Source: Lachnospiraceae bacterium JLR.KK008 (GTDB lineage: Bacteria; Bacillota; Clostridia; Lachnospirales; Lachnospiraceae). From it: DNA of 64,000 nucleotides. The stretch is taken from contig CP143548.1 in NCBI GenBank assembly GCA_037015955.1, forward strand, positions 892,001-956,000, given 5' to 3'. The notes beneath the pieces were generated by a model. The model worked only from the letters and a program-made list of their open reading frames with translations, did no database searches and was not told the origin of the DNA. The translations under genes and the position numbers were made by a program. Shown one piece after another: positions 3,434-64,000 of this stretch; within the stretch, counting starts at the first letter, position 1, and each line of letters starts with the position of its first letter.

Positions 3434-5506
3434 CTATTCTATATCTGTCATAAGTTCCAGCACTGTGTCCAGACCATGTTCCACGGCCACTTGCACAGGT
3501 GTAATTCCCTCATTATTTGGCTGGTTATAATTGGCTCCCTTCTTGATCAGATACCGCGCTACACCTGAATCTCCGTTTTGCAGAGCATAATACAGAACCG
3601 TATTGCCCTCATTATCCGTGATATGGATGTCGGCTCCGGCCTGAATCAACTGTTTGATGGCGTCTTTGAAACAGTAATGGTCTGCATTCAGCATCAGCGC
3701 AGTCATGCCAAGGTTGTCTGTGTGGTTCACATCGACACCCTTTTCTGCGAATATCGGGAACAGTTCTTTGGGAGCGGTAAGGTCCGCAAGCTGTAACAGC
3801 ATGAGAGGAGTCCTTCCGTTCTGGTCCGGTATATCCAGGTTTTTCAGCAGTTTTAATACAAGGCCCCGTTTTTCGTTGGTCATTTCCCGGCTATACCGAT
3901 CACTTGACACCACACAGTGTGCAGGTGTTTCCCCTTTGGAATTTTTTATCGTATCATCGGCGCCGACATCCATCAGCAGTTTTACTACATCAACGTGACC
4001 ATAGGTGCATGCTTCGTGGAGAGGGGTTGTTCCCGGATCGGCGGGAGAGTCCTCGGAAAGATTCACATCAATGCCTTTTTCTATCATGACAGCCAGCATA
4101 TCCGCATGTCCGTTCCGGGCAGCCATATGTATTGCGGCTTTGCCGCTTTCGTTTAACTGTTCCATAGATTGCTTGGACAGAATTTTTGCCGCTTCGCGAT
4201 GATAATTGACACAGTCCTGATATATTCTGGAACCGGGGTCTTTGGAAGCTATGATATATGCCGGAGTCAGCCCTTTTATTACGCCGGAATCCATGTCTAC
4301 GCCAAGATCTATCATTTTCCGGATAACGTTTGCTCCATAGCATGTGCCAAGGCATTCATCGCGCAGGCATGTGATGCTGCCGCCAAAATGGATGGGCATG
4401 GTAAAATCAAGTCCGGCATTATGACAGGCGTCCAATACCCGGAAGCCTGGATCAGACAGAAGGGCGTTGTGGAAAATGTCTGTGACATATCCTAATTCAT
4501 CATCGTCATCCATGTCTACCTGAGCGATCAGTTTCTCTGTAAGAAAAAGAGCCAGGCTGATACCGTCCAGATCATCATGAGAGTGGTTGCAGAAGGCATT
4601 GCTGGTAATCTGGCTCAATTCACTGATGTCCATAGGAGCTGTGTCAATCGGAGTTGCCCCGTAGTCCGCAAGGGCAAGGCAGAGTCCGTCATTTCGCCAC
4701 TCATGGGCGTGCCGGATGGGAGTCACCCCTTCCTTGTTGGCCATCTCCACCATTTCCGGATGCCGTTTCATCAACTGGAGGGCAGCGGTTATATGACCGT
4801 TTTTCATGGCCAGCATCAGCAGTGAGTTACCATTTTGATCGATATAATCGGTTTCAGCGCCTTTGTCCAGAAAAACCTCTGTCAGAGGCCAGGTATATTC
4901 CGAGCAGTAGGAGGAAGTTAAAAGGCGTGACAGAGGGGTAAAACCTTCTGCGTCTTTCTGATTGATGTCACAGGTTAAAATCCGGGCAATGGCTTCTCTC
5001 TGCATTGCGGTCTTTTCCTGACAGGGATCGTTCAGACCCTCAAACTGAGGATATGCGAGGAAATGGAAGGCATTCATGCCCCGTTTGTCGGAGAGGGAGG
5101 CATCGGCCCCGTGATCCAGTAAAAGTTTGGTCATAGCCAGATTACCGCGGCAGCAGGCCAGTAAAATGGGAGTAAGGCCATACCCTTTATCATCAGTCAG
5201 GTTTACATCTTCGTCAGAGATTCTTCCGTCATCAAACATGGCCTTTATCGCATCATAAAAGTTATGCCATACCAGAAGATGAAACAAAGTAAGTCCATAA
5301 CCGCCATAGATGCCTGTGGGAGCCAGCAAAGTCTCTTTCGAACATTGTGCAAGGCATTCCTGCGCTTCTGCGATCTCTTCTTCCGTGATGAGGTTATAAT
5401 AATAAATGCTGTTTTCAAAATCTTCCTCCCACCAGGGGATGAACTTGCTTTGGTTTAAGCGGGTGGCAGATACGGTCAGAAATTTTGACAATTCTTTTAC
5501 GTCCAT
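3434..5506 (-). CDS. Ankyrin-repeat protein, 690 residues
   Basis: The protein is almost entirely ankyrin repeats: about a dozen recognisable units with the TPLHxA / GHxxxVxxLLxxGAD pattern, clearest in the last 250 residues (for example TTPLHEACTYGHVDVVKLLMDVGAD). The first 70 residues are not repeat-like. No signal peptide or membrane segment, so probably cytoplasmic. Ankyrin arrays bind other proteins; no enzymatic domain is seen. Start chosen at ATG 5506 with AAAGGAAAA upstream. It is convergent to the mutS2 fragment and divergent from a second ankyrin operon starting at 5683. Partner unknown. Confidence 0.85.
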   Translation of the reverse strand: MDVKELSKFLTVSATRLNQSKFIPWWEEDFENSIYYYNLITEEEIAEAQECLAQCSKETLLAPTGIYGGYGLTLFHLLVWHNFYDAIKAMFDDGRISDEDVNLTDDKGYGLTPILLACCRGNLAMTKLLLDHGADASLSDKRGMNAFHFLAYPQFEGLNDPCQEKTAMQREAIARILTCDINQKDAEGFTPLSRLLTSSYCSEYTWPLTEVFLDKGAETDYIDQNGNSLLMLAMKNGHITAALQLMKRHPEMVEMANKEGVTPIRHAHEWRNDGLCLALADYGATPIDTAPMDISELSQITSNAFCNHSHDDLDGISLALFLTEKLIAQVDMDDDDELGYVTDIFHNALLSDPGFRVLDACHNAGLDFTMPIHFGGSITCLRDECLGTCYGANVIRKMIDLGVDMDSGVIKGLTPAYIIASKDPGSRIYQDCVNYHREAAKILSKQSMEQLNESGKAAIHMAARNGHADMLAVMIEKGIDVNLSEDSPADPGTTPLHEACTYGHVDVVKLLMDVGADDTIKNSKGETPAHCVVSSDRYSREMTNEKRGLVLKLLKNLDIPDQNGRTPLMLLQLADLTAPKELFPIFAEKGVDVNHTDNLGMTALMLNADHYCFKDAIKQLIQAGADIHITDNEGNTVLYYALQNGDSGVARYLIKKGANYNQPNNEGITPVQVAVEHGLDTVLELMTDIE

Positions 5507-21062: not shown

Positions 21063-21091
21063 TTGACCGTCCGTTGACGCTGTACTATGAT
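21063..21091 (+). promoter_or_regulatory. Promoter of the MATE exporter
   Basis: TTGACC (21063-21068) and TATGAT (21086-21091), spacer 17, with the same 13-base AAAAGTCATTGAC upstream as the chemoreceptor promoter. The -10 box covers the ATG at 21087, so translation must start further on. Confidence 0.65.
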
Positions 21092-21143
21092 GAGAATGCA
21101 GGAGAAAATCAGGACTGCAGATCAGGCGAAGAGGGGGATATTG

Positions 21144-22586
21144 ATGGAGATGGAGAATGAAACAGAATATTCTGATGTAAAATTTTCCCATAAAAAGAAT
21201 GGTCAGATGGATATGGTGACAGGCAGTCTCTGGGATAAGATTTTATTGTTTGCCTTGCCGATTGTCGTCACGAATGTATTGCAGCAGTTGTTTAATACGG
21301 CGGATATTGCCGTCGTCGGACGGCTTGTCGGCAACGACGCGCTGGCGGCGGTGGGCTGCACAGGTCCGATCGTCACACTGTTTATCACACTGTTTTCCGG
21401 TCTGGCGATCGGAGCCAACGCCGTTATCGCCAGACATATCGGCGCAGGAGACCGGAAAAAGACTAAAGAGGCGGTACATACATCCATAGCCATCGCCGTC
21501 CTTGCAGGGCTGGTTATTATGGCGGTGGGTGAGAGCATCACCAGACCTTTACTGGAAGTCGTGAGTACGCCGGATAATGTGATGGATCTGGCAGTCACTT
21601 ATCTGCGCATCTATTTTTCCGGCAGTCTCTTTCTGATGCTCTATAATTTTGAGGCTGCGATCCTGCGCGCGGGCGGCGATACGAGAACGCCCGTATTTGT
21701 ATTGATGGCCACGGGAGTGATCAATATCGGACTGAATCTGTTTTTTGTATTGGCCTGTGGTATGAGTGTGGAAGGTGTGGCGCTCGCCACGCTGATTTCC
21801 AATATTATGAGTGCGCTCATTCTTTTCATGATTCTGATGAGGGAGGAGGGCGTGCTCAAAGTCAGGCTGCGGTCGGTGCGCATATACGGAAAAGATGCAA
21901 AGGCGATTTTGATGATCGGCGTTCCGGCGGCGATACAGGGAATGCTGTTCAATGCGGCCAATATTGTCATTCAGTCCGGAGTCAACAGTCTCGGCTCCGA
22001 TGTGGTGGCGGGAGCGACCGTCGGCCTCAACGTGGAGACGTTTGGTTACTATATCGTGGCTGGCTTTGGTCAGACGAGTATTACGTTTAACAGTCAGAAC
22101 CTGGGGGCAGGCAAGTTAAGGCGCTGCGCCGAGTCCACGAGGTGGTGTCTGGGACTTGGGTTTCTCGTCACGGCGCTGGCCTCTGTATTGATGGTCGTCT
22201 TCCGGGAGGCGCTGGCGGGACTTTTCACGACGGATCAGACATTGATCGAGATCGCCTCTGTGCGCATTATGCTGATCGCGGGCTTTGAAGTGGTCAATAT
22301 GGTCATCGAGGTGATGTCAGGCACCCTCCGGGGGTTGGGATATTCGGCTTTGCCGGCGCTATTAAGTGTCTTTTTCGTGTGCGGAGTGCGTATTTTCTGG
22401 CTCTTTTATATCTTTCCGCTTAATCGGACATTTGGCTGGCTGTTCACGGTCTATCCTGTGAGCTGGGGACTTGCGGCTGCCAGCATGACGGCTGCATATC
22501 TGATTGTAAAAAAGAGATTGTATACACTGGCGGCGAAGCGACTGCAGGCAGGGGGAAACAGTGTGCAGGCTGATTATAATATGTGA
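21144..22586 (+). CDS. MATE-family multidrug/metabolite exporter
   Basis: 480 residues from ATG 21144, with about 12 membrane segments. The start is chosen because GAGGGGG stands 7 bases upstream and an earlier in-frame ATG at 21087 lies inside the promoter. The N-terminal motif LPIVVTNVLQQLFNTADIAVVGRLVGNDALAAVG is characteristic of the NorM/DinF-type MATE proteins, cation-coupled antiporters. Two homologous halves are visible (second begins near IGVPAAIQGMLFNAANIVIQSG). No terminator is seen before the RADAR ATPase gene 87 bases downstream, so read-through is possible. Substrate unknown. Confidence 0.92.
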   Translation: MEMENETEYSDVKFSHKKNGQMDMVTGSLWDKILLFALPIVVTNVLQQLFNTADIAVVGRLVGNDALAAVGCTGPIVTLFITLFSGLAIGANAVIARHIGAGDRKKTKEAVHTSIAIAVLAGLVIMAVGESITRPLLEVVSTPDNVMDLAVTYLRIYFSGSLFLMLYNFEAAILRAGGDTRTPVFVLMATGVINIGLNLFFVLACGMSVEGVALATLISNIMSALILFMILMREEGVLKVRLRSVRIYGKDAKAILMIGVPAAIQGMLFNAANIVIQSGVNSLGSDVVAGATVGLNVETFGYYIVAGFGQTSITFNSQNLGAGKLRRCAESTRWCLGLGFLVTALASVLMVVFREALAGLFTTDQTLIEIASVRIMLIAGFEVVNMVIEVMSGTLRGLGYSALPALLSVFFVCGVRIFWLFYIFPLNRTFGWLFTVYPVSWGLAAASMTAAYLIVKKRLYTLAAKRLQAGGNSVQADYNM

Positions 22587-22673: not shown

Positions 22674-25472
22674 ATGATAAAGTTAAAACTTTCGGACGCG
22701 CAAAAATTTAAGATACATATCGAAGAGAAAATCAAACGGGACAGCCTGTTTTTTCACGAATATAAGACTGCCGCCGGTCATCTGAATCAGATCTGGCAGA
22801 TGCAGAAGGAGGCGGAACAGGACAGAAAGCAGGAGTTTGCCGCGGAAACGCCGAACAATATCATTGCCTTTTGCGGCGAGCGGGGAAGCGGGAAGAGCAG
22901 CGTCATGCTCTCCTTTGTGAACGCGGTCATAAACTGCGGAAAGGAGGAAAATGTCCTTTCTTTTGACAAGGCAGTCAGGGAGAACGGCTGGAGCCATGCG
23001 GCAGTGACGATCGACCCTTCCATGTTTGATGAAGTGCACAATATTGTGGACATTGTATTGGCGCACATTTATCAGAGTTTTGCCGATGCCTATGAGGCGG
23101 ACAATCAGAGACTTGATACGTATGAGCGGGAGAAGATGATTGGCCTGCTGGCGAAAACGTACAAGAGCCTGTCGATTATTAAAAAGAAAGAAAAAATGCT
23201 GGATGACGAGTATGACATCGCCGGCAATGTGTCCAAGCTGCAAAAGCTCGGTCAGAGCACGCGGCTGAAACAGGATCTGAGGGAACTGATCGATCATTAT
23301 TTAATGCTGCTTCCGGGACTCGTCAGCAGTAAGAAAGACGCAGCGGACTGGAAAAGCAAAAAGCTGCTGATTGCGATCGATGACCTTGATCTGTGCAATG
23401 AACATGCCTATGAGATGGCGGAGCAGGTGCGCAAGTATCTGATCCTGCCGAATGTGGTCGTTCTGATGGCCATCAGGATCGAGCAGTTACAGATGGGCGT
23501 GGAGGAAAAGAACCGGGAAGATTTTAAACAGGTAATTGCAGGAAGGAACAACGACCCTTCGATCGCACGGGAGATGAAGGACATGGCCGAGCGGTATGTG
23601 ACAAAACTCATTCCCATGGCGCGGAGAATCTATCTGCCGGAACTTCGCAGCGATCAGGTCAGCCTTGTGCCGGAGAGCAGGGAGGATCAGCAGGGAAAAG
23701 ACGATGTGGTGCGGACAACGGAAGAGAGCAAAAAGGCAGATAACGAAGAATCGCTCGAACAGACGATCCTGCGTCTGATCCGGGAAAAGACAGGGATGTA
23801 CTTTGTGACGCCCGAAGAGGGGCCTTCCTATTTTGTGTCTGCCAATCTGCGGGAATTTGTGAACCTGGCTTCCCTGCTGATGGCGATGCCGACACCAACG
23901 CCGACGCCGGATGATGATCAGACAAGACTGGATAATATTGATACATTCCAATCTTATTTTACAGAGGGAATGCTGAAGAAAAATATTAGTTGGGAGCGGC
24001 TGGAGTGGTTTCTGGAAATTATGAAAAATGCCGACAGTGTGAGAAACTATAACATCGGTATGTATCTGAACGGCTTGCTGGACAGTGCAAAGCAGGAATA
24101 CGATCTGTATCAAAATTCCCTCTGTGAGTTTCCGAATATGAGTCTTTCCTTTGTGGCGGAGCGGCTGGCATCAGTCTCACGTTTTCGGACCAGACGGGAA
24201 GACTGGCGGCTGTTTTATTATATCAGAGTCTATTATACGATCTTGCTCAATGCAAGACTGTGTGCGAACGGCAAGATCCCGTTCTCCATTACTGGCGGTT
24301 TCCTGTGGGGGAATCGGCTGGGCGGATTACTGCCTGCGGTCACGATCAGGCAGAACCAGCATATGATGAACCGGGAGCGGTTTTTTATTCCTGCGCTGCG
24401 GGGCTGGAATGAGACCGCCTCTGTGCTCCATGACAGCGAGAATTCGTTATCTGTGCCGGAAAAAGATGCTTCTCAAGCTTATGTTTCAAAAATAGAGGAC
24501 GAACACTGGCTGGCGGAGACGGTATGCTGGCTGCTTCTGGCGCTGGTTTCCGCGCATAATGGCAAAACGAATTTTAGGAAAAACTATATGAACCGGGCGC
24601 CCATTGTCTATAACAATTATGCGGTGCCGTCAGTGGAAATCGAAATCAGTCTTGAGAACTATATCGTCAATCTGTGTGATCCGGAAGATCTGTACCGGAT
24701 TGCCAATCTGGAACTGCTGGGAATCACCCGGGAGAGAATACAGCCGGTTCTGGAGGCAATGAAAGCGCACAATGCGCCAGTCATTCGGCAGGCGAAGATC
24801 GTGGCGGCCAATATGGACCTGGCGGACAGACTGCTTCAGTACTGTCAGATTCACAATGATTATAAAGAAAGGACACAGTCAAAAGAGGACAGGACCTACC
24901 GCCTGTATGGTTTATTTTTCAAAAATGTAAGGAATTATTTAAAGATGCAGGGAGCCGGAGAGGCGGACTGGACGCAGCTCTGGATTCCGACCGGGATCAA
25001 AGAGGATGGACAGATCGAAGGAGTGTCTATCGATATGAATAGACTGTTTACGAAACTATGTGCGGCTGCTGCGGCGATCCTGCGAGAAAACTCAGGAGAA
25101 GGAAGTGACAGTGAGAACGCGAAAGAAGGATATATCAGCTATGAGGAAGGCCAGCGGAAAAAGCAGGAGTTTGCACAGCAGGTGCAGACGGTCGCGCAGG
25201 TGGATTATGCCAGGGGACTTCGAACAATCTCCGGTGCTCTGCAAAATAAAACGGCGGATCACGCGAGGTTTATGCTGGAAACTATCGGCAACAGCATTCA
25301 GAAGTATACATTCAGAGAGAAGAAGCTTCCCGCAGGCTTTGACCCTGTGCCTCTGATCCAATTATATGAGGAAGTGGTCGATCTGTGTGTGACAGACCCC
25401 AAAAAGGAGATCACAGAGATACAGCACAATACATACAGAGCCATTGCCAGAATCAAAGATGTAATCGGATAG
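22674..25472 (+). CDS. rdrA: RADAR anti-phage ATPase RdrA (predicted)
   Basis: 932 residues, the size expected for RdrA, the large P-loop ATPase of RADAR. Walker A is GERGSGKSS at residues 68-76, Walker B LLIAIDDLD at 231-239, followed by a sensor-like segment NVVVLMAIRIEQL. The remaining two thirds is a large helical region with no other named domain, as in RdrA, which forms a ring that cooperates with the RdrB deaminase. RBS AAAGGA precedes ATG 22674. The deaminase gene follows after 74 bases. Taken alone it would only be called a KAP-like or STAND-like ATPase; the RdrA name rests on the pairing. No sign of foreign codon use by eye. Confidence 0.85.
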   Translation: MIKLKLSDAQKFKIHIEEKIKRDSLFFHEYKTAAGHLNQIWQMQKEAEQDRKQEFAAETPNNIIAFCGERGSGKSSVMLSFVNAVINCGKEENVLSFDKAVRENGWSHAAVTIDPSMFDEVHNIVDIVLAHIYQSFADAYEADNQRLDTYEREKMIGLLAKTYKSLSIIKKKEKMLDDEYDIAGNVSKLQKLGQSTRLKQDLRELIDHYLMLLPGLVSSKKDAADWKSKKLLIAIDDLDLCNEHAYEMAEQVRKYLILPNVVVLMAIRIEQLQMGVEEKNREDFKQVIAGRNNDPSIAREMKDMAERYVTKLIPMARRIYLPELRSDQVSLVPESREDQQGKDDVVRTTEESKKADNEESLEQTILRLIREKTGMYFVTPEEGPSYFVSANLREFVNLASLLMAMPTPTPTPDDDQTRLDNIDTFQSYFTEGMLKKNISWERLEWFLEIMKNADSVRNYNIGMYLNGLLDSAKQEYDLYQNSLCEFPNMSLSFVAERLASVSRFRTRREDWRLFYYIRVYYTILLNARLCANGKIPFSITGGFLWGNRLGGLLPAVTIRQNQHMMNRERFFIPALRGWNETASVLHDSENSLSVPEKDASQAYVSKIEDEHWLAETVCWLLLALVSAHNGKTNFRKNYMNRAPIVYNNYAVPSVEIEISLENYIVNLCDPEDLYRIANLELLGITRERIQPVLEAMKAHNAPVIRQAKIVAANMDLADRLLQYCQIHNDYKERTQSKEDRTYRLYGLFFKNVRNYLKMQGAGEADWTQLWIPTGIKEDGQIEGVSIDMNRLFTKLCAAAAAILRENSGEGSDSENAKEGYISYEEGQRKKQEFAQQVQTVAQVDYARGLRTISGALQNKTADHARFMLETIGNSIQKYTFREKKLPAGFDPVPLIQLYEEVVDLCVTDPKKEITEIQHNTYRAIARIKDVIG

Positions 25473-25546
25473 ACCAAACGACATTTTATGCCGCACGGAT
25501 GTTATGACCGGATCAATGATGAGATCGCAGCGAACAGGACAGAACG

Positions 25547-28120
25547 ATGGATATTGAACGTGGAAATCTGGAGATCTTGCTGAAAGAGATTCCTTATGAC
25601 GAAATACAATTAAGTGAAAGACCGGGAGGGCGGCGTCATGACTATGCACATGTGGACCGGACGCTCTATCTGGAATACGCCAGACGTATTTTTCCTGCCT
25701 GCTCGGAAGATGAGAGGAGCAGTCACTATGAGTTGCTTGTGGAGAGTATGCGGGACGATAGAGGAGGCGTGCAGAGCCTGTTTGCACTGATCGTGAAGAT
25801 CGCGTCCAGACTGCTCTGTCTGCAGGGGAATGCCGTCAAATGCCGTCTGAATGAAATGCTGCGCTGGCGGGAGATCTCCTTCCAGCTCGGGCAGGAAGTC
25901 TTTACCTGTGCGCTGCTGGCAGCCGAGGACATACGCAGAGGAATGAGGACCAGATTCTTCGCCTGGGAACCGATCATCGGCAGTAACGATATGCGGCTCG
26001 ATCATATTCTGAAGCGGGGACTGGCGGAAAATCATTTTCACCTGAACGGATCGACGAAGATATTTGAGCTCAACTGGAGCTGCCTGATGAATCAGATCGA
26101 AGACCGTGGCCGGGCGTTTGCCAGATTTGAAACAATATTACAGCATGACTATGTGGAGCGGTCAGAGAGACAGAGATTCTATGGACGTTGTCAGGAGGCG
26201 GCGCTCTACCGCCTGTATTTGTTCAGTGTTTTGCACAGGGATCACTATCTGCTGGAAAATGTGGGCAACCTGTTATTAAAGGTAGAAAAGCGGAATGTCT
26301 TTATCTGGGAATGCCTGTCCGGGTTACAGGAGATGATCGGCCTGGCAGGAATGCTGTACGGCGCGGTCAATGAACGCGGCGCGGTGCTCGACTATGCGCT
26401 GGAGAAGGATTCGTACGACAGCAACAATAATTCGTGCCGTCTGCTGGCCGGTGAGCGGAGGTTCCTTTATGCGTGTTACCGGAGCGCGCTGGGAACAGGG
26501 GCCGAGGCCTTTTCTGCGTACGATAAAAATATATTTTACCGCTATCTTGTCCTGCGGACGTATTTCAGAAGCGAGATGATTCAGGTCAACCGCATGGTCG
26601 GTTTCGCTAATTTCAGCGAATATGAACTGCGCAAGGAATACTTTGTGGAAGGAAAAAAGGAATATGAAAGCGAGCTTGTCCGTCTGGCGGTCAATGCCTC
26701 GTTTCAGAATCAGAATATCGTCTCTCTGGAAGCAAGACTTTGTCCGGCGATGGACGCCGGCGGATTGGCGAGGAAGATCAATGAAAAGATCAGAGCGACG
26801 GCGGAAGATGACATTGAGCAAAAGCTGTTTTTTGTTCTGCACTTTCCGAAACAGAGGGAAGAGACTTATCGGCCCGGAGAGCCGCGTAATGCCGCCGTGC
26901 GCAGCAGGACAGCGAGGCAGACAGACGCTATTGTGGCGCTTTTGGAAAAAGAAGGCGGATTGGGCGAATCTGTCAGGGGCATTGATGCCTGCGCCAATGA
27001 GATCGGCTGTCGGCCGGAAGTATTTGCCCGGTATTTCCGTTATCTGCTTGACTATCATCCACCGGTAAGGAGAGAGCGGGCACACAGTCTGATGGCCACG
27101 TACCATGCGGGCGAAGATTTTCTTGACATCGTGGACGGACTGCGGGCGATTGATGAGGCGGTGCTTTTCTGCGGGCTGTCTCGGGGCTGCCGGCTCGGTC
27201 ATGCACTTGCGCTCGGTATCAGTGCCGCTGATTATTATCAGTTCAAGGGGAACCGGGTCGTGATGCCGAAGCAGGATCTGCTGGATGATATTGCGTGGCT
27301 GCTCGTGAAACAGGAGCAATACGGCTGTCCGCTGGACGGGGCGTTAAAGAGTATATTAGAGACAATGTTTTATGAACTGTTTCATGAGATCTACGGCGGG
27401 AGAGTTAAGGGGACCGGGACGATGTTCCGTTATCCGGATTATTACAACAGCTGGATGCTGCGGGGCGACGAACCGTCCGCCTACCTGGCGGATCGTGACA
27501 GTTTTCTGCGGAGACTGGCGGTCGTTCCGCTGCATAAGCCGGACCGCTATCGGTTTAACAAAGCGGCGGCGGATTCGATACGTAGAGTTGATCAGTACAG
27601 AGAGTTGTATGTGCTCTATCATTATGACAGGCGGGTGAGAGAGAGGGGCGCGCAGACGATATTATTTAAAGTACCGTGCGGTTATGCGGAACTGGTGAGG
27701 AATATCCAGGATAAGATGATCCGGGAGCTGGTGGACAGGGGGATTGGCATTGAGACGAACCCGTCTTCCAACTATCTGATCGGGACAATCCGGAAATATG
27801 AGGAACATCCGATCATCCGTTTTAACGGCAGAAAATTAAAAGACACAGAGACAAACATGTCTCTGCAGGTTTCGATCAATACGGACGATCAGGGTGTATT
27901 TGACACTTCGCTGGAAAATGAATATGCGCTGATGACGATCGCCCTGAAAAAAGCCAAAGACGGGAATGGCAGGTATTTATATGATATGGAGGATATTTAT
28001 GCGTGGATCGACTATGTGCGGCGAATGGGCATCACACAGTCGTTTCGGATGCAGGAGGACGGGAAAGCACAGACATCTTGGACAGAGGTTAACTGGAAAG
28101 AGAGAGATTGGAAAATATGA
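25547..28120 (+). CDS. rdrB: RADAR adenosine deaminase RdrB (predicted)
   Basis: 857 residues, more than twice an ordinary adenosine deaminase. All active-site elements are present in order: the zinc pair H163-x-H165 in AENHFHLNGST, H520 and catalytic E523 in YHAGE, H552 in RLGHALALG, the ETNPSSN block, and D780-D781 in NTDDQGVFDTSLENEY. Large insertions between them are typical of RdrB, which assembles into a big shell with RdrA. RADAR deaminates adenosine in RNA or in (d)ATP during phage infection; which is the main substrate is debated. No accessory SLATT or Csx27-like membrane gene follows. Alternative, an isolated divergent deaminase, is unlikely given rdrA upstream. Confidence 0.88.
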   Translation: MDIERGNLEILLKEIPYDEIQLSERPGGRRHDYAHVDRTLYLEYARRIFPACSEDERSSHYELLVESMRDDRGGVQSLFALIVKIASRLLCLQGNAVKCRLNEMLRWREISFQLGQEVFTCALLAAEDIRRGMRTRFFAWEPIIGSNDMRLDHILKRGLAENHFHLNGSTKIFELNWSCLMNQIEDRGRAFARFETILQHDYVERSERQRFYGRCQEAALYRLYLFSVLHRDHYLLENVGNLLLKVEKRNVFIWECLSGLQEMIGLAGMLYGAVNERGAVLDYALEKDSYDSNNNSCRLLAGERRFLYACYRSALGTGAEAFSAYDKNIFYRYLVLRTYFRSEMIQVNRMVGFANFSEYELRKEYFVEGKKEYESELVRLAVNASFQNQNIVSLEARLCPAMDAGGLARKINEKIRATAEDDIEQKLFFVLHFPKQREETYRPGEPRNAAVRSRTARQTDAIVALLEKEGGLGESVRGIDACANEIGCRPEVFARYFRYLLDYHPPVRRERAHSLMATYHAGEDFLDIVDGLRAIDEAVLFCGLSRGCRLGHALALGISAADYYQFKGNRVVMPKQDLLDDIAWLLVKQEQYGCPLDGALKSILETMFYELFHEIYGGRVKGTGTMFRYPDYYNSWMLRGDEPSAYLADRDSFLRRLAVVPLHKPDRYRFNKAAADSIRRVDQYRELYVLYHYDRRVRERGAQTILFKVPCGYAELVRNIQDKMIRELVDRGIGIETNPSSNYLIGTIRKYEEHPIIRFNGRKLKDTETNMSLQVSINTDDQGVFDTSLENEYALMTIALKKAKDGNGRYLYDMEDIYAWIDYVRRMGITQSFRMQEDGKAQTSWTEVNWKERDWKI

Positions 28121-28824
28121 GAAAATGGAACAATAAAAAAAGTGATAAAGTTAATAAGACCGGAGACGAAGCGATGACAGTCATGCCGGGGACAGGCGAG
28201 ATCTACCGGCATTTTAAGGGGAATCTGTACAGGATCGTGACACTGGCCACACATTCGGAGACGGGAGAAAAGATGGTTGTTTATCAGGCACTCTATGGTG
28301 ACTGTGAGATTTATGTGCGGGAGCTGTCCATGTTTATGAGCAAAGTGGACAAAAAGAAATATCCGGATGCGGAGCAGGAGCAGCGGTTCGCCCTGATGCC
28401 GCAGATCATCGGACAGGGGGCGGTGAGCGGAGAGAGCAGGCCGATGCAGAGCCATGCGCAAAGTCAGCCGGATATACCGATACCGCCAGCGCGGCCGGAG
28501 AGCGGACAGGTTCAGCCACAGTCTGTCGTTCGCCCACAGCCCACAGTGACAAAGAAGGAGGCTGCTGCCCGGCCTGCGGATCAGATACAGGAAGATGAGG
28601 CCCCGCTGGACCCGTTTTTATTACAGTTTTTAGATGCGGATACGTATGGGGAAAAGCTGAATCTGCTGGCAGCGCTCCATGGACGGATCACAGATGATAT
28701 GATCAATACGATGGCTGTCTCTCTTGATCTGGAAGTGAATGACGGAGAGATTGAGGAGCGGTATGAGGCGCTGAAGACCTGTCTGCTGACACTGGAAAAG
28801 TATGAATGTAACAGGCTCAGATAA
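28117..28824 (+). CDS. DUF1653 protein overlapping rdrB
   Basis: About 235 residues. DUF1653 domain near the start (GEIYRHFKGNLYRIVTLATH ... VVYQALYGDCEIYVRELSMF), a proline/glutamine-rich linker at about 105-160 and a helical C-terminal domain (PFLLQFLDADTYGEKLNLLA onwards). Two starts are plausible: ATG 28117, overlapping the rdrB stop as ATGA, or ATG 28174 with CGGAGA upstream. DUF1653 has no settled biochemical role. From memory, proteins of this two-domain form are common in Lachnospiraceae outside RADAR loci, so it may be a chromosomal gene rather than part of the defence system. Confidence 0.8.
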   Translation: MRKWNNKKSDKVNKTGDEAMTVMPGTGEIYRHFKGNLYRIVTLATHSETGEKMVVYQALYGDCEIYVRELSMFMSKVDKKKYPDAEQEQRFALMPQIIGQGAVSGESRPMQSHAQSQPDIPIPPARPESGQVQPQSVVRPQPTVTKKEAAARPADQIQEDEAPLDPFLLQFLDADTYGEKLNLLAALHGRITDDMINTMAVSLDLEVNDGEIEERYEALKTCLLTLEKYECNRLR

Positions 28825-57784: not shown

Positions 57785-58041
57785 TTAAAAGCGATGACGG
57801 AAACGAGTAGCAGTCCGGAACCATCCAGAGAGAGCGGCATTTGGTGGAAGCCGTTTATGCGGGAAGGCTGTGAAAACCATTCCCAAGCTGCAGCGCCGAA
57901 AGACATTTTTGTCCGGTAAGTGTTGTCGTATGCCTGCGTTAAAGGACAGGATTTGCTGGAATCCGAAGTGAAAAGTTAAGGTGGAACCGTGCAACTTGCA
58001 CCCTTAAAGATACAGGAACTGTATCTTTGAGGGTGTTTTTT
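57785..58041 (+). promoter_or_regulatory. T-box leader (threonine) of thrS
   Basis: Conserved stem I elements GATGACGGAAACGAGTAG and AGAGAG, distal loop TGGTGGAAGCC, and the T-box sequence AAGGTGGAACCGTG at 57978-57991. The likely specifier is ACC (Thr) at 57876-57878 within GTGAAAACCATT. The terminator is CACCC ... GGGTG (57999-58035) plus six T. Uncharged tRNA-Thr would pair with the specifier and T-box and allow thrS transcription. Confidence 0.92.
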
Positions 58042-58160: not shown

Positions 58161-59945
58161 ATGAAAGTGCTGACAAACGACGGACAGGTAAGAGAATATG
58201 GTTTTGATGAGAAGCTGGGGAGAGCGGCTTTCTGGCACACGTCGGCCCATATTCTGGCGCAGGCGGTAAAGCGGCTCTATCCGGATGTGAAATGTGCGAT
58301 TGGACCGGCAGTGGACGGTGGATTTTATTATGATTTTGAGTTTTCATTTCCTTTTCAGGAAGGACATCTCGCCGGAGTGGAGGAAGAGATGAGACGGATT
58401 GTAAAGGAAGCGCTTCCGCTGCGGACGTACGAAGTGGCAAGAGAAGAAGCGGCCCGGATTATGGGAGAACGTGGGGAAGAGTATAAGCTGGAGATGATCA
58501 GACAGCTTGCCGACGGGGAACGGATTACGTTTTATGAGCAGGGTAATTACGGGGAATTCTGCGCAGGCCCTCATGTGACGAATACGTGTGTAGTTGGGGC
58601 GCTGAAGCTGACAGGCATTGCCGGAGCCTATTGGCGGGGCGATGAAAACAACAGAATGCTCACAAGAATTTACGGTGTTTCGTTCCCGAATGAGGCGGAG
58701 CTGTCACAGCATCTGGAAATGCTGGAGGAGGCAAAGCGCAGGGATCACAGGAAGCTGGGACGGGAATTGGGGCTGTTTGCTTTTATGGAAGAGGGACCGG
58801 GGTTTCCCTTTTTCCTTCCAAAAGGAATGATTCTCAAAAATATTCTGATCGGCTATTGGAGAGCGCTGCATGAGCGGGAAGGGTATCAGGAGATTTCCAC
58901 GCCGATTATGCTGGATCGCGGTCTGTGGGAGACATCGGGGCACTGGGATCATTACCGGGATAATATGTACACGACAGTGATTGAGGGAAATGAATTTGCG
59001 GTCAAGCCGATGAACTGTCCGGGCGGGATGCTTGTCTATCAGATGACGCCGCATTCTTATAAGGAACTGCCGCTGCGGCTGGGAGAACTGGGGATTGTGC
59101 ACAGACATGAAAAGTCCGGACAGATGCACGGACTTATGCGGGTACGCTGCTTTACACAGGACGACGCTCATATTTTTATGACGGAAGAGCAGATCCGGGA
59201 CGAGATCAAAGGCGTTGTGAGAATGATCGATGAAGTATATACCAGATTTGGGTTTCCCTATTATGTGGAACTTTCGACAAGACCGGAGGACAGCATGGGG
59301 AGCGATGAGGACTGGGAGCTGGCGACACAGGGGTTGCGGGAGGCGTTGGAAGATCTGGACTTGTCCTACCAGATCAATGAAGGAGACGGAGCCTTTTACG
59401 GGCCGAAGATCGATTTTCATCTGAAAGATTCTCTTGGCAGGACATGGCAGTGCGGTACGATACAGCTTGATTTTCAGCTTCCGCTCAGGTTCGGGGCGGA
59501 ATATACGGGTGCCGACGGGAAGAGACATCGTCCGATCATGATCCACCGGGTCATCTATGGCTCGATCGAGCGGTTCATCGGGATTCTGATTGAGCATTAT
59601 GCAGGGAAATTTCCGGTATGGCTGGCACCGGTCCAGGCAAAGGTACTCTCGGTCTCGGAAAAGAGCGAACGATATGCAGGAGAAGTCTGCGAAACGATGA
59701 AACGGGCGGGCATCCGCTGTGAGACTGACCTTCGCAGTGAAAAGCTGGGCTATAAGATCCGGGAATCCAGGCTGGAGAAGGTGCCGTATCTTGTGATCGT
59801 GGGGGAAAAGGAGGAGCAGGAAGGGACGATCTCCGTGCGCTGCAGAGACGGGCGGGAGGGAAAAGATTCGTCGGAGAGTATGAGGGTGGAGGATCTGATC
59901 AGGAAGATCAGCCAGAGACAGAGCGACTGTCTGCCTCCGGTCTGA
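58161..59945 (+). CDS. thrS: Threonyl-tRNA synthetase without TGS domain
   Basis: 594 residues. About 60 N-terminal residues that form the TGS domain in most ThrRS are missing; only about 20 precede the N2 editing domain. Editing residues are intact (H26 and H30 in HTSAHILAQ; C134 and H138 in CAGPH). Class II core: zinc Cys286 in MNCPGGM, IVHRHEKSGQMHGLMRVR, and the later MIHRVIYGSIERFIGILIEH; anticodon-binding domain at the C-terminus from about residue 490. RBS AGAAAGGGG before ATG 58161. Controlled by the T-box. Confidence 0.95.
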   Translation: MKVLTNDGQVREYGFDEKLGRAAFWHTSAHILAQAVKRLYPDVKCAIGPAVDGGFYYDFEFSFPFQEGHLAGVEEEMRRIVKEALPLRTYEVAREEAARIMGERGEEYKLEMIRQLADGERITFYEQGNYGEFCAGPHVTNTCVVGALKLTGIAGAYWRGDENNRMLTRIYGVSFPNEAELSQHLEMLEEAKRRDHRKLGRELGLFAFMEEGPGFPFFLPKGMILKNILIGYWRALHEREGYQEISTPIMLDRGLWETSGHWDHYRDNMYTTVIEGNEFAVKPMNCPGGMLVYQMTPHSYKELPLRLGELGIVHRHEKSGQMHGLMRVRCFTQDDAHIFMTEEQIRDEIKGVVRMIDEVYTRFGFPYYVELSTRPEDSMGSDEDWELATQGLREALEDLDLSYQINEGDGAFYGPKIDFHLKDSLGRTWQCGTIQLDFQLPLRFGAEYTGADGKRHRPIMIHRVIYGSIERFIGILIEHYAGKFPVWLAPVQAKVLSVSEKSERYAGEVCETMKRAGIRCETDLRSEKLGYKIRESRLEKVPYLVIVGEKEEQEGTISVRCRDGREGKDSSESMRVEDLIRKISQRQSDCLPPV

Positions 59946-61722: not shown

Positions 61723-63660
61723 ATGACTGATGAGAGAAAGAAGCAGCTGCTCCGGCTGCTCGAAATGGCCCGCAGTGAGGTAGAGAACGGACAGGAGATT
61801 TCCACGGAGTATGCGAGAGTCTTCTTCCCGCCGCAGCGCCGGGAATATGAGCTGACTTATTACGGCAAGGAGACGAGAGAACAGATTATCAGTCAGACGT
61901 ATGCGGCGCCGCTGCAGGAGGACCGGAAATTTGGCGATGCGGGTGCGGATGGCTGGCTGAACAAGCTGATCTTCGGAGACAACCTGCAGGTGCTCAAACG
62001 GCTGGTCGAGATGAAACGGTCCGGGGAGCTGAAAAATGCCGACGGTACGGATGGCGTCAGACTTGTCTATATCGACCCGCCCTTTGCCTCGAAGCAGGAC
62101 TTTACCAATAACGAGAAGGCTTATGCCGATAAGATCAAGGGCGCACAGTTTCTGGAATGGCTGCGCAGACGGCTTGTGCTGCTGCGGGAAGTGCTGTCTT
62201 CAGACGGCAGTATTTTCGTTCATCTGGATTGGCACAAGGCGCATTACATCAAAGTGTTGATGGACGAGGTGTTCGGTGAGGGGAACTTTCGCAATGAGAT
62301 TATCTGGCATTATGGAACTTATGTCGGGCAGACAAAAAATAAATTTCCGCGCAAGCACGATACGCTGCTCGTATATGGGAGGACGATTGATGCGCGGGTT
62401 TTCTTTCCCCAAAGAGATGGCAATCCGGAGAATGATGCCAACTTTAAGCGGTGGATGAGCTATTTTAACGACAACAATGAGATCACGGGAGGCGACTACC
62501 CGTCCGAAGATTCGAAATTTGACGGTTATGTCAAACGGTTTGTCAAAGAGCACGGCAGGCAGCCCGGGAGCGAGGATGTGTTGCTGCGGGTTGACGGTAA
62601 GCTGGTAGACTCTGTCTGGGGCATTGAACCGGAAGAGGATGAGACGGTCTGGGATATTCAGTCAGTCAATCCGATGGCGAAGGAAAAGACCGGTTATCCA
62701 ACACAGAAACCGGAAGAATTGCTGCGCAGAGTGATCGCTTCCTCCTCAGTAGAAGGGGATATCGTGCTGGACTGCTTTGGCGGTTCGGGCACGACGGCGG
62801 CGGTGGCTGAGAAGATGGGACGCAGATGGATCACCGTGGATATTGGCAAGCTGTCCGTTTATATGATACAGAAGCGGATCCTCGGCATTGGCGGCCACAG
62901 GGGCTTTGTCGTATACAATGCGGGCCTGTACGACAATACGAGGCTGAATGATTTTGACGAAGGGCAGTGGAAGCAGTTCGCCATGTCGCTGTGGGACGTG
63001 GAACCGCTGGAGAAGACGGTGAGAGGAATCCGCTTCGACGGGCACAGAGACGGTGCCCCTGTCAAAGTGTATACGCCGCAGGAACTGGAGCGGCTTGGCG
63101 GGCTGATCACGGAGGAGACGATCGGACAGCTGTACCGAAGACTCGGAGCCAGCGCCGGTAGAGAGCTCTATGTGATCGCACCGCGGGGGAAATTTGCCTT
63201 TGCCAGCGATGAACTGGACGGCGACGGTGACTGGGACGTGACCTTTTATTTCCTGCGCATCCCCAATTCAATGACCGAGCGGTTCACAGACAGCTTCAGC
63301 GCCCAGATTCAGGCGTCCGACACGGATTCGGTCAACGATGCGGTGGATGCGGTGGGATTCGATTTCATCCGTCCTCCAAGGGTGGCTTTTACGGTGGCGG
63401 ACGGACGACTGACGATCGATTCCTTCAGTGCGCAGGCGAGAATCCGGGGGAAATACGAGTACATGGGGATCGAAGCGTTCTCCATGCTGCTTGTTGATTT
63501 TTCCTATGATGGCAAAGTGTTCTCGGTGGATCATGTCTATTATCGGGATCACTTTAAAGAAAACAGTATCGATTTTCCGACGAAACGTGTCGCCGGGCAG
63601 GCAATGCTGATCTTTATCGATAAGTTCGGAAACGAGTACAGAACAATATACGGAGGCTGA
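61723..63660 (+). CDS. Type III restriction-modification adenine methyltransferase (Mod)
   Basis: 645 residues, typical for Mod. Beta-class N6-adenine methyltransferase order: catalytic DPPF at 118-121, target-recognition region in the middle, SAM-binding DCFGGSGTTAAVAEKMGRR from residue 350. Methylates an asymmetric site and forms the complex with Res. The N-terminal helical stretch and LIFGDNLQVLKRL are family features. Start ATG 61723 after AGGTAGGAACG. Res begins one base after its stop. Confidence 0.93.
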   Translation: MTDERKKQLLRLLEMARSEVENGQEISTEYARVFFPPQRREYELTYYGKETREQIISQTYAAPLQEDRKFGDAGADGWLNKLIFGDNLQVLKRLVEMKRSGELKNADGTDGVRLVYIDPPFASKQDFTNNEKAYADKIKGAQFLEWLRRRLVLLREVLSSDGSIFVHLDWHKAHYIKVLMDEVFGEGNFRNEIIWHYGTYVGQTKNKFPRKHDTLLVYGRTIDARVFFPQRDGNPENDANFKRWMSYFNDNNEITGGDYPSEDSKFDGYVKRFVKEHGRQPGSEDVLLRVDGKLVDSVWGIEPEEDETVWDIQSVNPMAKEKTGYPTQKPEELLRRVIASSSVEGDIVLDCFGGSGTTAAVAEKMGRRWITVDIGKLSVYMIQKRILGIGGHRGFVVYNAGLYDNTRLNDFDEGQWKQFAMSLWDVEPLEKTVRGIRFDGHRDGAPVKVYTPQELERLGGLITEETIGQLYRRLGASAGRELYVIAPRGKFAFASDELDGDGDWDVTFYFLRIPNSMTERFTDSFSAQIQASDTDSVNDAVDAVGFDFIRPPRVAFTVADGRLTIDSFSAQARIRGKYEYMGIEAFSMLLVDFSYDGKVFSVDHVYYRDHFKENSIDFPTKRVAGQAMLIFIDKFGNEYRTIYGG

Positions 63661-63661
63661 G

Positions 63662-64000
63662 ATGGAATACCGGGAGAGCGATCTGGTGCTGGAAGTCAGC
63701 AAGAATGTAGATCCCAATGTGTGGGATGAGGGGAAATATGCGGCCTTTTTTGACCTTTTATTCCGGGACCGGGTTTATCAGAAGGAGGCGGCGGAGACGG
63801 CGCTGCGTTATTTGAACAGCGGTGTATATTCATGTATGGAGGATCTGGCGCGGGAAAATTTTGCTGCCAATGAAGTGATCCGGGAACGCTTTTACGGGAA
63901 CCTCAGCGCCTTTCTCGAGGACATCGGACTGCCGGACAGATTGTCGGGAACGATCGATCTGGCGACGGGCACCGGGAAAAGTTATGTGATGTATGCGCTG
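63662..64000 (+). CDS. Type III restriction endonuclease Res subunit (cut by window end)
   Basis: The first 113 residues are visible from ATG 63662. Walker A is TIDLATGTGKSYVM near residue 97-110, the start of the SF2 helicase motor of Res; the nuclease domain would be far downstream. The gap to mod is one base (TGAGATGG), with GGAGG upstream within mod. Together with Mod it forms a type III restriction system. Confidence 0.85.
   Translation, partial: MEYRESDLVLEVSKNVDPNVWDEGKYAAFFDLLFRDRVYQKEAAETALRYLNSGVYSCMEDLARENFAANEVIRERFYGNLSAFLEDIGLPDRLSGTIDLATGTGKSYVMYAL

Follow-up and report, generated by a model that had tools for sequence, protein, structure and literature searches.

The window analysed here, a stretch of 64,000 nucleotides from a Lachnospiraceae-type genome, very probably carries a two-gene RADAR operon at positions 22674–28120, in which rdrA is followed by rdrB. 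In characterised RADAR systems RdrA forms a ring and RdrB a shell, the RdrA crown docks on the shell, and infection leads to the conversion of ATP and dATP to ITP and dITP (PMC9994260, excerpts). By analogy with the E. coli, C. rodentium and S. suis systems, from which we infer oligomers, complex formation, substrate, trigger and defence alike, the operon would act against phage in the same manner. RdrA would assemble as an AAA+ ATPase ring and dock through its helical crown on a large shell of RdrB deaminases, with the C-terminal helical lobe of RdrA as the likely infection sensor. RdrB activated by infection would then turn ATP and dATP into ITP and dITP, which would spoil the nucleotide pool and stop phage replication.

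RADAR is already known, as are its stand-alone form and a tested system that the RdrA of this branch reaches. What is new is one more member of a branch that the naming models miss, and a view of the genes that lie upstream of rdrA in its relatives. The analysis places an intact RADAR operon in the branch that an RdrA profile connects to S. suis RdrA, and the upstream partner genes of the relatives bear on the question of what activates RADAR.

The two proteins and their predicted folds

The rdrA-like gene (22674–25472, forward strand) encodes an AAA+ ATPase of 932 residues, and the rdrB-like gene (25547–28120, forward strand) encodes a protein of 857 residues with an adenosine-deaminase fold. 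Both open reading frames (ORFs) are intact and lie in the order given by the earlier note, with the same gap of 74 bases between them (25473–25546, forward strand), in which a terminator scan listed no site. The start of rdrB is supported by its two closest relatives in alignment A1, which share MDIER at the same point, one of them with two extra residues in front.

Family searches agree on both proteins. The best PADLOC matches are RdrA for the first (E 3.5e-7) and RdrB for the second (E 8e-32), and the NCBIfam models of the same two families also match (RdrA, E 8.8e-13 and 47.6 bits; RdrB, E 2.1e-49 and 168.8 bits). These scores are far below the equivalog cut-offs of 600 and 800 bits, which indicates a distant branch and makes automatic naming improbable. 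The cut-offs serve for naming and do not define RADAR, and validated systems share 22–28% identity in parts (PMC9994260, excerpts). Above the Pfam gathering score, the first protein matches KAP_NTPase and the second A_deaminase. Two other PADLOC families considered for the first protein, mad8 (E 1.2e-4) and AriA of PARIS (E 0.011), were rejected against the stronger RdrA match.

The nucleotide-binding motifs expected of the first protein were confirmed: Walker A reads GERGSGKS (68–75) and Walker B reads LLIAIDDLDL (231–240). Residues R70, G71, G73, K74, D236 and D237 are invariant in all 38 aligned sequences, the window included, and R393, also invariant, is a candidate for sensor 2. The sensor 1 place is occupied by R268, equivalent to D253 of E. 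coli RdrA as read from the profile alignment, and is variable among the 38 sequences (K in 15, D in 13, R in six, N in three and H in one). In the predicted structure (pLDDT 80.6, pTM 0.73), helices at 124–228, the predicted crown, lie between beta strands 110–113 and 231–235; further helices at 269–312 follow strand 261–267, so that the helices after sensor 1 are present, and the C-terminal part is largely alpha-helical.

A single-sequence search with the window RdrA matched E. coli RdrA at E 0.004 and did not reach S. suis RdrA (8FNU); the link to the latter therefore requires a profile. Built from 38 RdrA-like sequences with the window first, the profile matches 8FNU almost end to end (E 2.1e-46; profile 69–834 of 866, chain 56–899 of 907) and E. 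coli RdrA essentially over the ATPase part (E 1.6e-22 and 4.3e-22). All 20 PDB matches of the RdrA model with E below 0.001 are RdrA chains, and S. suis 8FNU stands first (E 6.5e-14). The alpha-helical C-terminal lobe is supported by the reach of the profile match to residue 899 of 8FNU and by significant structural matches to RdrA chains only. The TM-score against 8FNU is modest (0.48/0.55) and the rmsd is high, a result that would be consistent with the mobile lobes reported in RdrA (PMC9994260, excerpts).

RdrB contains a complete deaminase site, composed of four zinc-ligand histidines, the catalytic glutamate and a pair of aspartates, within the motifs HFH (H163, H165), HAGE (H520, E523), RLGHA (H552) and NTDD (D780, D781). 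The active-site list of the earlier note was correct for the six residues that it gave and missed the seventh, H552. This histidine lies 32 residues after H520, the spacing that separates H498 from H530 in E. coli RdrB, and it aligns with H530, the last histidine of that zinc site (E. coli positions from PMC9994260, excerpts). All seven residues are invariant in the 49 aligned RdrB sequences, window included.

The RdrB model (pLDDT 89.6, pTM 0.90) was compared with the PDB using Foldseek. RdrB chains, from 8FNV and 8HR7, fill the first eight ranks (E 2.5e-28 to 2.3e-26), with TM-scores of 0.69–0.71 by query and 0.76–0.77 by target (0.77 by target for 8FNV). Ordinary and CRISPR-associated deaminases rank after these chains, from E 3.5e-4, and those of them with E below 0.001 have query TM-scores of 0.22–0.28. 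An ordinary adenosine deaminase was rejected as the identity of the second protein, being weaker than RdrB in NCBIfam, alignment and structural matches. A CARF-fused deaminase (CARF-ADA/Cad1) was likewise rejected: Pfam finds no CARF match at E 1, and PADLOC CARF_ADA matches only the deaminase end of RdrB (721–795).

The predicted folds settle membership of RADAR. The profile search and structure comparison proposed by the earlier note thus bear out its RADAR-type reading, with RdrA and RdrB as the best family matches of the two proteins and, in the RdrB model, RdrB-type insertions and RdrB chains ahead of ordinary adenosine deaminases. The nature of the site also bears on a reading that we consider improbable, namely a RADAR-like pair whose deaminase acts mainly on RNA, not on free nucleotides. 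A-to-I editing was reported when RADAR was first described (according to excerpts of PMC7699616), and the PDB holds RdrA entries titled 'RNA-loading state'; against this, PMC9994260 (excerpts) reports ATP-to-ITP conversion with little RNA editing, and the site in the window RdrB is of the adenosine deaminase type. Conversion of ATP and dATP by a RADAR pair is the activity that we would predict.

Relatives, pairing and genomic setting

RdrB matches at E 0.001 were found in 25 of 299 Lachnospiraceae genomes, the window's own included. Eleven are strong, at E 8e-36 or better (G000, G273, G262, G107, G028, G076, G201, G176, G252, G029 and G144); among the remaining 14, one is a remnant (L050, in G010), and the other 13 match only weakly, at the deaminase end and within frames of 120–376 aa; we read these as ordinary deaminases. 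RdrA matches occur in nine of the 299 genomes, each of which also has one of the 11 strong RdrB matches. The frame upstream of rdrB is cut by the contig end in G252, and in G144 a protein of 1068 aa in that position is not matched by the window RdrA.

Scanning the GTDB species genomes yielded 168 relatives, of which 80 were kept; going by their record titles, these belong to Bacillota and Bacteroidota, with one Fusobacteriaceae and one Solidesulfovibrio. Once a locus with no RdrB ORF called (L085) was dropped from 82, 78 of 81 loci have an RdrA-like ORF ahead of rdrB. This count is partly circular, since the RdrA HMM was built from ORFs positioned upstream of RdrB in 17 loci and the window, and some contigs of those loci seem to recur among the 80 (the pairs L038/L061, L039/L058 and L045/L102 look identical by length and place). 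The three loci without RdrA are two at contig edges (L102, L131) and a fragment (L132). Independent checks on the pairing come from the RdrA count in the 299 Lachnospiraceae genomes and from the NCBIfam RdrA model, which matches 36 of the 38 aligned RdrA sequences (alignment A3, 37 of 66 relatives plus the window), the window among them. NCBIfam RdrB matches all 49 sequences of alignment A2 (48 of 73 listed relatives, eight loci having already been set aside, plus the window). The best E-value among these is 4.8e-63, so the sampled branch as a whole falls far short of the score needed for naming.

The best plasmid-borne match is from Aureibacter tunicatorum (35% identity over 85%). In this plasmid record (L032) both genes are listed as 'hypothetical protein' and are followed by a gene annotated SLATT. 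Given those labels and the position of the window far below the NCBI cut-offs, RADAR is probably under-counted by name-based surveys in Bacillota and Bacteroidota. The phage collection gave no match; two related stretches lie in viral contigs, one of them a fragment of 236 aa.

Relationships within the family were drawn from a quick maximum-likelihood tree of 86 RdrB rows (L062, L064, L089, L105, L131 and L132 left out), in which the chosen outgroup does not hold together, a long-branch warning was given and deep branches are unsure. The window falls in a group of 13 rows (100% SH-aLRT) as outgroup to 12 relatives, of which 11, those in A2, are 51–55% identical to the window RdrB; nine of the 12 come from records placed in Lachnospiraceae. 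The next supported set, of 32 rows (95%), takes in the branch where upstream family X occurs (see below). Nine rows lie outside the 77-row branch that contains the window: the plasmid rows L033–L037, together with L047, L048, L049 and L165, the last from G299, of the same genus as the window.

Two side observations concern the relatives. In seven loci from Bacteroidota and one Fusobacteriaceae (L072, L081, L084, L086, L089, L097 and L116), RdrA appears to be divided between two neighbouring ORFs, one for the ATPase part (310–333 aa, but 505 in L116) and one for the C-terminal part (385–696 aa), either by gene fission or at a frameshift site; L086 and L089 are near-copies. In L053 (Dorea sp. 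5-2), two ORFs directly upstream of rdrA appear recombinase-like by eye, a hint of mobility.

In the window, rdrA is preceded by a gene for a MATE-family transporter (21087–22586, forward strand) and rdrB is followed by a gene for a DUF1653 protein (28174–28824, forward strand; ATG start at 28174 set by homologs), with gaps of 87 bases from MATE to rdrA, 74 from rdrA to rdrB and 53 from rdrB to the homology-based DUF1653 start. With these two genes as flanks, the expected lack of a SLATT or Csx27-like accessory gene was upheld. The MATE gene is judged to lie outside the system because a 70% identical copy in another genus (G001) stands without rdrAB and with other genes after it. DUF1653 was rejected as an operon member since it heads a conserved DUF1653-mutY block, and is taken as the right edge of an insertion. 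DUF1653 and mutY lie close together in all six contigs of the genus that show 1.8 kb or more upstream (L157–L162), with glyA nearby in five of them, and on the upstream side shown neither rdrAB nor this MATE gene is present in any of the six. Together with the MATE copy elsewhere without rdrAB, these contigs make rdrAB look laterally gained at the block. A repeat search for the insertion ends gave short imperfect matches only and no clear repeat.

The RdrB match in the window's genome is the sole copy. This type occurs in one of the ten genomes of the genus and in none of the nine others searched, with another RdrB type in G299; four of the ten reach 90% completeness with no more than 5% contamination. 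The scan of flanking genes (ten window proteins) found no defence gene near rdrAB, its REase_II match being mutY. The next defence-like gene found downstream is about 34 kb away, an N6/N4 DNA methyltransferase (61723–63660) that scores best on type III restriction models (Pfam 1.9e-46; PADLOC MTase_III 5e-57) and has behind it an ORF that continues past the window end (63662–64000). Other features of the window include an ordinary T-box leader (57785–58008; Rfam 99.8 bits) preceding a tRNA synthetase gene with the threonyl/alanyl second additional domain (58161–59945), and a 690 aa ankyrin-repeat protein (3434–5506, reverse strand) matched by PADLOC candidate PDC-M72A (1.9e-42) and by Ankyrin (3.8e-26); these matches may reflect repeat similarity only.

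The housekeeping type of the nearest neighbours and the deaminase fold would suit a two-gene system of purine metabolism unrelated to phage. We regard this as very unlikely, given a patchy distribution (strong matches in 11 of 299 Lachnospiraceae genomes, and this type in one of ten within the genus), an AAA+ partner gene in nearly every related locus, and the position of several relatives next to genes that we read from sequence as type I restriction, McrBC-like and SIR2-like. Decay is seen in related loci: in L064 rdrB is broken into two ORFs and a piece of 175 aa is left of rdrA, in L062 rdrA is shortened to 386 aa, and in L050 (G010:C172) the start of rdrA is fused to the end of rdrB. That the window operon is likewise a non-functional RADAR remnant has an equally slight chance, as both of its frames are open from end to end and it retains the residues found invariant in relatives.

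Upstream and accessory genes

Stand-alone rdrAB is a described RADAR subtype (PMC7699616, excerpts), and reviews, in excerpt, also give Csx27- and SLATT-associated subtypes, one of them describing the SLATT subtype as four genes (rdrABCD). The window operon is of the stand-alone subtype, since SLATT and Csx27 are not among its neighbours and its genome has no match to the profiles of two upstream families found in relatives, here termed X and Y (the X search being empty in every genome). Accessory genes do occur among the relatives: in L112 rdrB is followed by a Csx27-like gene (PADLOC E 2.5e-7; one locus tested of four in its cluster), and L032 and L043 have SLATT/DUF4231-like genes, with a DUF4231 match above the Pfam cut-off in L043 only. 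The window and its 12 nearest relatives have the plain pair, with no shared upstream gene seen.

Family Y proteins (406–483 aa) are encoded directly upstream of rdrA and have a conserved N-terminal part followed by TPR repeats, with a TPR_2 match at E 0.1 in 11 of 14. Y is present in 14 of the 15 rows of its tree branch (L091, L099, L101, L108, L109, L112, L114, L119, L120, L123, L127, L128, L129 and L130), the fifteenth (L124) lying near a contig start, and also in L040–L044 and L046. The Y profile matched 45 of 299 Lachnospiraceae genomes, six of them strongly (E 2.3e-43 or better) and all six beside rdrA; weak matches from other genomes begin at profile position 195 or later, which is the repeat part. 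Y is a candidate RADAR sensor or adaptor.

Family X proteins are larger (594–723 aa) and are also encoded directly upstream of rdrA, in 14 of the 19 rows of their RdrB branch (L067, L070, L079, L087, L093, L094, L095, L106, L107, L110, L113, L117, L118 and L125); in the other rows, L082 and L103 begin at rdrA, and L068, L071 and L092 carry something else. X matches no Pfam family (best E 0.06), and its best PDB match has only E 0.032. Its consensus contains a conserved D-D-x-x-x-H-G-R stretch, which may resemble a phosphoribosyltransferase loop. The X profile matched none of the 299 Lachnospiraceae genomes, an empty result that, without a known positive, shows nothing.

X or Y may already be among the rdrABCD genes. 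A literature search joining RADAR, rdrA and tetratricopeptide found no paper, and the excerpts of PMC10952713 and PMC12948488 add nothing on RADAR accessory genes. This RADAR branch has at least three operon plans (plain, Y and X). We suggest tentatively, with a little less than even confidence, that X and Y serve RdrA as its own infection sensors or adaptors, and that RADAR is modular with swappable inputs. If so, comparing the stimuli of sensor-bearing and plain systems could reveal the RADAR trigger.

Comparison with known systems

Cad1, the CARF-fused adenosine deaminase of type III CRISPR systems, makes ITP from ATP (PMC11645235, excerpts) and has its deaminase fold in common with the window RdrB. 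It differs in its CARF domain, none being found in the window protein, and it is a much weaker match (PADLOC E 1.8e-7; Foldseek E 6.6e-4).

The RADAR system of E. coli P0304799.3 (RdrB 8FNV, RdrA 8FNT, complex 8FNW) is nearer. The RdrB fold, insertions, and active-site residues with their spacing are common to both, at 18% identity over the structural alignment with the window RdrB model. Three segments, one ahead of H163, one running from H165 to H520 and one from H552 to D780, comprise 162, 355 and 228 residues in the window, close to 151, 344 and 218 in E. coli (D748 placed by alignment). In a weakly aligned stretch, the glutamates of the E. coli three-fold interface (E595–E597) fall on R-V-K of the window. 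The ATPase part of RdrA is also common to both, whereas the C-terminal part is hardly matched by sequence.

For the S. suis SS993 system the comparison rests on RdrA, as the excerpts of PMC9994260 list no structure for its RdrB. Single-sequence similarity between the window RdrA and 8FNU is too low to detect, yet at the level of the profile 8FNU is homologous almost from end to end and is the best structural match. 8FNU is SsRdrA, the RdrA of a system that protected E. coli from phages (PMC9994260, excerpts).
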